The notes under the pieces are model-generated. The model saw only the letters and a list, made by a program, of their open reading frames with translations. It searched no databases and was not told the origin of the DNA. A program made the position numbers and the translations under genes. Shown here piece by piece: positions 1-63,908 of a DNA stretch of 63,908 nt. This DNA comes from a virus, in IMG/VR virus record IMGVR_UViG_3300032087_005153, positions 1-63,908 of that record; one strand, written 5' to 3'. Position 1 is the first letter of the stretch. Each line of letters starts with the position of its first letter.

Positions 1-91
1 TGATCGGAGCCTAACTATATTATCCAAAATAGTTCGTGTTTACATTGTAAAATACCGAGCACAAAAAGTCAAAAGTTATGTACTTGATACT
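1..91. repeat. Terminal direct repeat, left copy
   Basis: These 91 bases are identical to 63818-63908. Either they are the overlap left when a circular or circularly permuted genome is linearised, or a short true terminal repeat. The left copy contains a copy of the promoter-like element (core 18-50, minus strand), so on the closed circle there is only one such element here. Confidence 0.97.
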
Positions 92-59461: not shown

Positions 59462-59592
59462 TATGATATTTGTTTTATATAGTTTAGTGCTGCTTTTTCT
59501 GTATTAAAATCTTTATACCCAGTATATATGTCATTCTTTTTCCAAAACACTCGATATTGATTATTAATTGTCATTTTAATTTTTGTTTTCAT
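59461..59592 (-). CDS. Hypothetical 43-residue basic protein
   Basis: Linked to both neighbours by ATGA and TAATG overlaps. MKTKIKMTINNQYRVFWKKN, then YTGYKDFNTEKAALNYI resembles a fragment of an AP2- or Arm-DNA-binding-like three-stranded sheet of phage DNA-binding proteins. Too small to be sure. Confidence 0.45.
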   Translation of the reverse strand: MKTKIKMTINNQYRVFWKKNDIYTGYKDFNTEKAALNYIKQIS

Positions 59593-59831
59593 TGTGTTAA
59601 TTCTTTAGCCATATATGTTGTATACGGCAGATTTGTTTTCATGGGTTCAATTAATTCTGCCATACGTAGCCATACTCTTAGATTGCTAATGTCACCCATA
59701 ACTAATTTATAAGATAGCTCGGGCCAGGCAGCGTGGTGTCTGTTTCTGAAATGAGTACGTACACTTAATCTGTAATGTGCTATTTTAGATATTAGCTTAG
59801 CCTCAATTCGATCGTCGATTGGATTTGTCAT
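59589..59831 (-). CDS. Hypothetical 80-residue protein
   Basis: Helical and basic: IAHYRLSVRTHFRNRHHAAW, then GDISNLRVWLRMAELIEP. The first gene downstream of the structured RNA locus. Unrecognised. Confidence 0.45.
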   Translation of the reverse strand: MTNPIDDRIEAKLISKIAHYRLSVRTHFRNRHHAAWPELSYKLVMGDISNLRVWLRMAELIEPMKTNLPYTTYMAKELTQ

Positions 59832-59850
59832 AGTATTTAATTTAATTTAG

Positions 59851-59937
59851 TGGATGTGGGAGGAATCGAACCTCCGTTTAGAAGACTTGACAACAATGCT
59901 TTCGCTTGACAACAATGTCTATCTGCCTATCACACCC
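59851..59937 (-). ncRNA. tRNA-like domain with an extended arm
   Basis: Reading the minus strand: a 7-bp acceptor stem (GGGTGTG, 59937-59931, with CACATCC, 59858-59852), discriminator A at 59851, and a perfect tRNA T-arm, GGAGG-TTCGATT-CCTCC (59875-59859). There is no recognisable D-arm or anticodon arm. Instead 59920-59883 can form one long hairpin: AGAC(A)TTG / CAAGTCT, a TTGT/TTGT internal loop, and CAAGC-GAAA-GC(A)TTG with a GAAA tetraloop. A 13-base sequence occurs twice (59886-59898 and 59905-59917). The shape recalls the tRNA-like part of tmRNA. CCA is not encoded. A degenerate class II tRNA is the alternative. Confidence 0.6.
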
Positions 59938-59942
59938 AATAG

Positions 59943-60006
59943 CCGAGGGCACAGCTCATGACCTGTATTTCTAACTAGTATGTATCGCTCGTCAGCAATC
60001 CCTCGG
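59943..60006 (-). ncRNA. Structured RNA domain 2 upstream of the tRNA-like element
   Basis: A 7-bp closing stem, CCGAGGG (60006-60000) with CCCTCGG (59949-59943), encloses 50 bases holding two hairpins, TTGCT-GACG-AGCGA and ACAG...CTGT. It lies 5 bases upstream of the tRNA-like domain on the same strand, so both may be one transcript. Pairings were found by eye. It is shorter than a tRNA and has no T-arm consensus. Confidence 0.45.
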
Positions 60007-60019
60007 TGCCGTTAATATT

Positions 60020-60086
60020 GTTAGCTAAGCAAAGCCGCCCCAGAAAATGTCTGGTATTTGTTCAAGGCTGCTCTACTTAACTTAAC
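60020..60086 (-). ncRNA. Structured RNA domain 1
   Basis: An outer stem of about 10 bp with one bulge (GTTAAGTTAAG, 60086-60076, with CTTAGCTAAC, 60029-60020), an inner imperfect GCAGCC/GGCGGC stem, and an apical 5-bp hairpin CCAGA/TCTGG (60054-60050 with 60044-60040). It follows the stop of the 48-residue gene by about 26 bases. Together with the two downstream domains it makes a gene-free structured interval of about 235 bases. Confidence 0.45.
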
Positions 60087-60525: not shown

Positions 60526-60558
60526 TATTATCCGTTATCCTCCGTGTTAGGGTTGTAA
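60526..60558 (-). promoter_or_regulatory. Promoter-like element, copy F
   Basis: Fits the six-copy pattern TTACAA-N5-ACACG-N9-GGATAATA exactly, read on the minus strand. It ends 34 bases before the start codon at 60491 and overlaps the 3' end and stop codon of the 53-residue gene. Confidence 0.75.
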
Positions 60559-61232: not shown

Positions 61233-61265
61233 TATTATCCGTGTTTGTTCGTGTTAGGTTTGTAA
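61233..61265 (-). promoter_or_regulatory. Promoter-like element, copy E
   Basis: Exact fit to TTACAA-N5-ACACG-N9-GGATAATA on the minus strand. It lies in the gap between the 66-residue gene (stop at 61280) and the start at 61214, 18 bases before that ATG. Confidence 0.8.
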
Positions 61266-62876: not shown

Positions 62877-62909
62877 TATTATCCGATTATGATCGTGTTA
62901 AGCTTGTAA
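62877..62909 (-). promoter_or_regulatory. Promoter-like element, copy D
   Basis: Exact fit to TTACAA-N5-ACACG-N9-GGATAATA on the minus strand. It ends 25 bases before the ATG at 62851 and overlaps the stop codon of the 58-residue gene upstream. Confidence 0.8.
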
Positions 62910-63471: not shown

Positions 63472-63504
63472 TATTATCCAGTTGAGGTCGTGTTTACTTT
63501 GTAA
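63472..63504 (-). promoter_or_regulatory. Promoter-like element, copy C
   Basis: Exact fit to TTACAA-N5-ACACG-N9-GGATAATA on the minus strand. It overlaps the last codons and stop of the 77-residue gene and lies 25 bases before the ATG at 63446. Confidence 0.8.
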
Positions 63505-63755: not shown

Positions 63756-63788
63756 TATTATCCATTTGTGTTCGTGTTTAGTTTGTAA
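63756..63788 (-). promoter_or_regulatory. Promoter-like element, copy B
   Basis: Exact fit to TTACAA-N5-ACACG-N9-GGATAATA on the minus strand, 28 bases before the first early ATG at 63727. It is 79 bases downstream of copy A (start to start). Confidence 0.8.
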
Positions 63789-63817: not shown

Positions 63818-63908
63818 TGATCGGAGCCTAACTATATTATCCAAAATAGTTCGTGTTTACATTGTAAAATACCGAGCACAAAAAGTCAAAAGTTATGTAC
63901 TTGATACT
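63818..63908. repeat. Terminal direct repeat, right copy
   Basis: Exact duplicate of 1-91. Collapsing the two copies gives a circle of about 63,817 bp in which the minus-strand early genes and the plus-strand genes diverge from this junction. Confidence 0.97.
63835..63867 (-). promoter_or_regulatory. Promoter-like element, copy A
   Basis: Exact fit to TTACAA-N5-ACACG-N9-GGATAATA, located inside the terminal repeat (its duplicate at 18-50 is the same site on the closed circle). No gene starts directly after it; it may be a tandem upstream promoter for the first early gene or part of the origin or control region. Confidence 0.75.

Follow-up and report, generated by a model that had tools for sequence, protein, structure and literature searches.

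A tmRNA-like domain with an exchangeable arm in the RNA island of a marine phage lineage

The virus record IMGVR_UViG_3300032087_005153 of IMG/VR, analysed over its whole 63,908 nucleotides (the window), holds on its minus strand an RNA domain that ends like a tRNA and has no anticodon arm. What is such an RNA, and what may it do for a phage? The domain, of 90 nt (59848-59937), consists of a constant frame, here called S1 or mini-tmRNA, and of a variable arm. The frame resembles the tRNA-like domain (TLD) of transfer-messenger RNA (tmRNA) deprived of the coding and pseudoknot region. The explanation favoured here, with a probability of about one half, is that of a tagless tmRNA reduced to its TLD, which would act as a decoy against trans-translation and whose arm is the landing site for exchangeable modules.

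The frame and its relation to tmRNA

All features described in the window lie on the minus strand. The acceptor is formed by GGGTGTG (59931-59937) and by CACATCC, which together with the discriminator A73 occupies 59851-59858. The two strands pair in 7 of 7 positions, G3 pairing with U70, and CTA follows the discriminator. The D-loop-like segment ATAGGC (59925-59930) contains GG and has no D-stem. On the other side of the arm, the linker AAAC precedes a T-arm of 5 bp with a 7-nt loop (GGAGG-TTCGATT-CCTCC, 59859-59875). The 7-bp acceptor stem and canonical T-arm of a preliminary description, made from the sequence, are therefore confirmed. The same description had found neither a D-arm nor an anticodon arm; the anticodon arm and the D-stem are indeed missing, but the D-loop-like GG segment is kept, as in tmRNA. 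In tmRNA and tRNA the GG of the D-loop docks to the T-loop, and G3-U70 and A73 are identity elements of alanine tRNA and tmRNA. The window carries this alanine-type acceptor, L006 being the exception among the relatives (related loci are cited by L numbers). No cloverleaf with a D-arm and a 7-nt anticodon loop is formed, and ARAGORN, run as the gene-finder check that had been proposed, calls neither tRNA nor tmRNA in the region.

A permissive Rfam search places the domain in the tmRNA family RF00023, with a match that spans positions 1-374 of the 374 of the model, lacks about 280 positions in the middle and scores 38.3 bits (E 7e-14 in a search of 551 bases; gathering cut-off 47 bits); at gathering thresholds nothing in the region is matched. 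The relatives score 20.6-42.6 bits with this model and only L125 exceeds the cut-off (64.7 bits). Every frame unit that drew any Rfam match, the window included, has tmRNA as its best one. These matches, together with the passing score of L125, identify the frame as the TLD of tmRNA and not as a tRNA. The RNA of L125 (12758-12839, minus strand) measures 82 nt, has no tag, message part or pseudoknots, and seems intermediate between tmRNA and the frame. The likeness to RF00023 extends to G3-U70, A73, the stemless D-loop with GG, the NNAC linker, the T-arm and a P2 helix in the place of the anticodon arm, although the P2-like closing helix of the window is short (3 bp continuous). The differences are the absence of the tag reading frame and pseudoknots, CTA instead of an encoded CCA, and arms that are unrelated between relatives. 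The kinship with the relatives is also seen by score: model R1, built from eight of them with the window left out, finds the window at 44.9 bits (E 2e-9), whereas ordinary tRNA-Met genes of the same loci reach about 20 bits.

The relatives are metagenome contigs that were collected with exact patterns, so that family sizes and some of the invariances are biased by the patterns. A core-hairpin pattern taken from a relative retrieved 16 viral contigs, and a pattern of linker, T-arm and acceptor retrieved 41. The script counted 39 distinct frames (40 rows, one of them a nested double count), which become 44 when flanks are told apart and L125 and L136 are added. Constant in these frames are the acceptor (GGG-N-G-N-G / C-N-C-N-TCC) with G3-U70 and A73, mostly followed by CTA, the linker AAC or AAAC, the T-arm and the D-loop-like segment without D-stem, whose GG is kept in nearly all relatives (L034 and L006 are without it). 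In the alignment of 12 distinct frames (A6), 100% of the paired cells hold pairs and pair 3:70 is G-U in 12 of 12. Four pairs of the acceptor and T-arm show double changes, a number reached by 1 of 500 shuffles, and the covariation score was reached by none of 500; within the T-arm, 2 of the 5 pairs have compensatory changes. Pair 4:69 is C-G or U-A in A6, G-C in L125 and A-U in L136, and takes in this way all four Watson-Crick forms. Compensatory changes, which had been named beforehand as a check, were found in the acceptor, the T-arm, the closing helix of the relatives' arms and a neighbouring domain (B, below).

The arm and the exchange of modules

The arm of the window (59880-59924) stands in the position of an anticodon arm. 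It is closed by AGA/TCT and contains two copies of the 13-mer CATTGTTGTCAAG (59905-59917 and 59886-59898) that flank a CGAAAG cap with its GAAA loop. The 13-mer had been described as duplicated to build a hairpin. The duplication around CGAAAG stands, but the pairing is not that of a Watson-Crick hairpin: read from the sequence, CATTGTTGTCAAG set antiparallel to itself gives C-G, A.A, U-A, U.C, G.U and U.G around a central U.U, which is a two-fold symmetric duplex of mostly non-canonical pairs. The minimum-energy fold prediction pairs the copies slightly differently. A likeness of the 13-mer to the Rfam family RT-6 (15.4 bits, E about 1) was treated as chance.

Among the relatives the arm measures 25-110 nt and the inserts are unrelated to one another. 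Defined by shared 7-mers, 15 insert families are carried by 39 frames, a number that could be smaller if some families are diverged forms of others. The ends of each insert pair together, with a mean of 5.27 bp vs 3.16 bp for swapped ends (0 of 5000 as high). Exchange of a complete insert is seen between L047 and L065, which share no 7-mer in the insert while the 400-bp flanks are 98% and 95% identical; the claim uses only this case of flank identity within 0.95-0.99, and identities of about 0.8, computed with free end gaps, were not used. L053 and L076 are the same contig, and this one phage bears two frames with different inserts. The arm is thus a hypervariable insertion site, a landing site for RNA modules.

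The modules are not confined to this frame: the same inserts recur in plain hairpins and in frames of other types. The internal loop ACAAAGTT/TACACTAT is present both in the frame and in a free hairpin, and other phages have it in a form without T-arm. Its stems covary through eight versions, CAAA/ACTA is nearly fixed and the cap varies. The pattern holds in members found by the T-arm search alone (L043, L051, L066 and L073), and for this reason the invariance is not merely a product of the first search pattern; it holds as well in free copies (L047, L055, L070 and L071). Module G, which L076 has in its frame, is also carried by plain stems. A second constant frame, S2 (CTAGACGAGTAGCTTAATTAG ... 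ACATAAGTGAAT-NGCTAG), carries at least five different inserts (L054, L059, L062, L071, L074, L125 and L136), and a third, S3 (GAGAGGTTTAAGGTTGGAAG ... CATTCCAGTCCCGTCCACCTCTC), has nested inserts (for example L047, L065, L068, L070 and L071). No insert matched an Rfam family or a defence RNA. An AGTG/CACT pseudoknot in the core insert was considered and rejected, being present in L013 and L018 and absent from L006, L021 and L034. As a separate observation, an H-type pseudoknot (ACTGG/CCAGT and GTACAG/CTGTGC) can be read from the module GCAAGTATTACTGGACTAAAGTACAGATAAAAATCCACCAGTCTGTGCACTTGC of L022 (10330-10674) and L035 (3691-4117), both on the minus strand.

The duplex of the window behaves in the same manner. 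A search for duplicated ATTGTTGTCA recovered it within the frame of L136, within the S2 of L125 and within two further structured RNAs (L118, L128, L130 and L131; L123, L124 and L127), whose carriers are larger or tRNA-rich phages. The 13-mer is exactly duplicated in nine different structured contexts, with different outer and inner stems, and every copy keeps the three bases (C, A and G) that the search pattern did not specify. The insert of L044, L053, L060 and L062 is also built on a duplicated strand, AGA-CAGTA-TCT. Of the loci with these two large RNAs that contain the 13-mer duplex (L139 also belongs with L123, L124 and L127), several adjoin tRNA arrays, and Rfam gave no family for either RNA.

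The RNA island and its carriers

The domain is the last part of an RNA island (60084-59848), placed between a 48-aa and an 80-aa open reading frame (ORF) and co-oriented with both. The island is predicted to fold into three domains, A (60084-60018), B (60006-59943) and the tRNA-like one (59937-59848). The fold of the region surpasses its shuffles (z -3.85, 0 of 200 equally good), in agreement with the three paired domains first described, and each domain does so alone (z -2.96, -3.07 for B and -4.89 for A). The assumption that they make up a single multi-domain RNA has to be abandoned: the three are independent modules of a mosaic, recombined differently in the relatives. L004 has A and B with another module and no tRNA-like domain, the partners of B are quite different in L002 and L013, and the frame is also found without A and B.

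Module A is a long stem capped by a CCAGACATTTTCTGG hairpin and is present also in L003 and L004. Module B has three helices with GACG and GTCATG loops. In 11 sequences, both-sided changes affect 8 of its 14 pairs and 2 of 154 cells are unpaired, as counted on a hand alignment, since MAFFT misaligned helix P1. The loci of the relatives that carry A or B gave no Rfam match to these modules. A self-cleaving ribozyme, hammerhead or other, was rejected for B: the core CTGACGA is present, stem II is missing and Rfam gave no match.

The 80-aa ORF (59589-59831) lies directly downstream of the island and marks the syntenic slot, whose relatives were retrieved through this gene and a neighbouring 134-aa gene with a DnaA-C-like helix-turn-helix. 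The slot holds differing sets of structured modules. Many islands end with ordinary tRNA-Met(CAT) genes (L014, L015, L028, L030, L033, L035, L038, L039, L051, L066, L073, L077 and L078), the ends of which look initiator-like (A1.A72 mismatch). A tRNA-like RNA at L008 (1744-1883; RF00005, 45 bits) has a normal D-arm and T-arm, but its anticodon region is longer by about 70 bases. A conserved protein of about 64 aa, zinc-ribbon-like (CxC...CxxC) and without a Pfam match, is encoded directly upstream of the island in L022, L023, L028, L032, L035, L043, L125 and L136; it is a possible RNA-binding partner. The motif ACACG-N9-GGATAA, a putative phage-specific early promoter, occurs seven times in the window (20-39, 60528-60547, 61235-61254, 62879-62898, 63474-63493, 63758-63777 and 63837-63856) vs 0.17 expected by shuffling. 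Nearly all copies are in the early region, and that at 60528-60547 is the nearest upstream of the island.

The large terminase of the window is present in 40 of 48 records, including every record of at least 39 kb, and in the frame-bearing records that cover the gene its identity to the window's is mostly 67-89%. Among cultured phages, those of Flavobacterium, Cellulophaga, Tenacibaculum and Maribacter have the nearest terminases, which points to a marine flavobacterium as the probable host. The sole match in a bacterial genome (L040, NZHE01000017.1) is filed under a Rickettsiales metagenome-assembled genome (MAG). It has phage synteny and is a contig of this phage lineage, probably placed there by a binning error. 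In Elemovirus elemoF a tRNA-Met stands beside an unannotated stretch that does not match the frame model.

Possible roles of the domain

In the favoured explanation, the host would trim the 90-nt domain like a tRNA precursor and add CCA, and the product would be charged with alanine through G3-U70. The mini-tmRNA would then bind SmpB and EF-Tu. Without a message part it would be a dominant-negative decoy, and would block host trans-translation during early infection either by titrating SmpB or by entering stalled ribosomes that it does not rescue. The arm, which replaces the message and pseudoknot domain, would be dispensable for this action; its freedom to vary would be explained in this way. 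It would have become a landing site at which modules, closed by a short helix, are exchanged as whole cassettes, the window carrying the two-fold symmetric duplex. A decoy role had been suggested from the start and is retained as the leading interpretation, but a decoy for anticodon-cleaving defence is not supported, as the domain lacks an anticodon loop; SmpB, AlaRS, EF-Tu and stalled ribosomes are more plausible as targets.

A precedent is the mycobacteriophage DS6A, for which a TLD-only tmRNA is described (PMC4131195; PMC11915505, citing Mao et al. 2009). According to these accounts, a DS6A-like molecule strongly inhibits E. coli tmRNA, perhaps via SmpB titration, whether chargeable or not. 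Both cases are phage-encoded tmRNAs cut to little beyond the TLD and have no tag frame, and the view that the domain is tmRNA-like rather than a decoding tRNA is upheld by this precedent and by the Rfam match. DS6A is a single case, from an actinobacterial phage and compared by its description, and the accounts in PMC4131195 and PMC11915505 do not report a swappable insert or an RNA island. Organellar tmRNAs of jakobids and Mallomonadaceae (about 65 bp) have likewise lost the coding part and kept the tRNA domain, but are mitochondrial or plastid, with no insert exchange described (PMC11915505).

Several points weigh against the decoy. The RF00023 score of the window is below the cut-off of the family. 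In L006, which fills the same slot, both G3-U70 and A73 have been lost, and charging can therefore be dispensed with in this case; nor was it required for the inhibition cited for the DS6A-like molecule. Many relatives have a core hairpin that is also found, without a T-arm, in other phages (L021, L026). No isolated phage has the frame, blastn and tblastn searches of cultured phages giving ordinary tRNAs or nothing. A separate role of the inserts is suggested by how strongly they are conserved. As a side observation, the T-arm-less hairpin (GGCGTG ... CACGCC) lies near terminase genes in L021, L025, L029, L026 and L031, in records without the window's terminase.

In a second, tentative explanation the frame is mainly a stable mount processed like a tRNA and the insert is the effector, a decoy or aptamer for defence proteins or signals that is exchanged in an arms race. 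It would work after the manner of RNA anti-CRISPRs or pseudo-ToxI, with the difference that a tRNA-like scaffold displays it. The inserts are hypervariable, are swapped as cassettes and turn up again outside the frame as well as in unrelated phages; their internal-loop sequences are fixed while the stems covary, even in members found without the loop pattern; and the island sits in an early region of small ORFs. RNA anti-CRISPRs (Racrs), which set a precedent, are small RNAs with which phages block a machine of the host by imitating one of the host's RNAs (PMC10651486). What Racrs copy are CRISPR repeats, however; the RNA imitated by the present domain would be tmRNA, and its arms have no known counterpart. 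Against a mount stand the failure of the inserts to match Rfam families or defence RNAs and the fact that the only bacterial-genome match is a phage contig in a MAG. The mount and the decoy are compatible. A still more speculative extension is a combinatorial display, in which the chargeable mini-tmRNA, one or more other constant frames and plain stems all present interchangeable modules, in one early-expressed island that would serve as an RNA-based counter-defence arsenal. The 13-mer and CAGUA duplexes could then be receptors for homodimeric proteins or symmetric ligands, e.g. cyclic dinucleotides. Large structured phage RNAs of the GOLLD and ROOL families (PMC12286853), often near tRNA islands and of unknown function, offer a parallel, the 5' part of GOLLD being variable; they are single large families and not exchangeable small modules, and their models had no match in the Rfam searches of the window and relatives.

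It is improbable that the arm is merely tolerant, with inserts that spread by recombination at no cost and with no function in inserts or frame. The extreme variety and nesting of the modules would fit, and a TLD fold should accept any helix at this position, but compensatory changes preserve the frame, the closing helices and free modules such as B, and loop sequences are nearly invariant. Very unlikely is a complete two-piece or permuted tmRNA with its message half elsewhere in the island. The tRNA domain is of the tmRNA type and two-piece tmRNA genes are common in marine phages (PMC9004378), but both acceptor strands are on one 90-nt unit in normal order, A and B are found apart from the frame and vice versa, and the permuted-tmRNA model RF04321 appeared only in L125 and poorly (24.0 bits). 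A tRNA gene, ordinary or decayed and with or without an intron, can be set aside despite the tRNA-like T-arm and acceptor and the ordinary tRNA-Met in the same slot of some relatives, since ARAGORN calls none there, removal of the arm leaves no anticodon arm (which also excludes a group I intron), tmRNA outscores tRNA and the covariation shows maintenance.

The TLD-only phage tmRNA was formerly a curiosity of one mycobacteriophage. Its conservation here in about 40 related contigs of marine phages suggests that interference with ribosome rescue is a regular strategy among phages. By combining a constant frame with inserts that can be exchanged, the domain parallels in nature the engineered 'tRNA scaffold'. 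It carries, among the relatives, about 15 phage RNA modules unmatched in Rfam, and the frame provides a common pull-down handle with which their targets may be sought.
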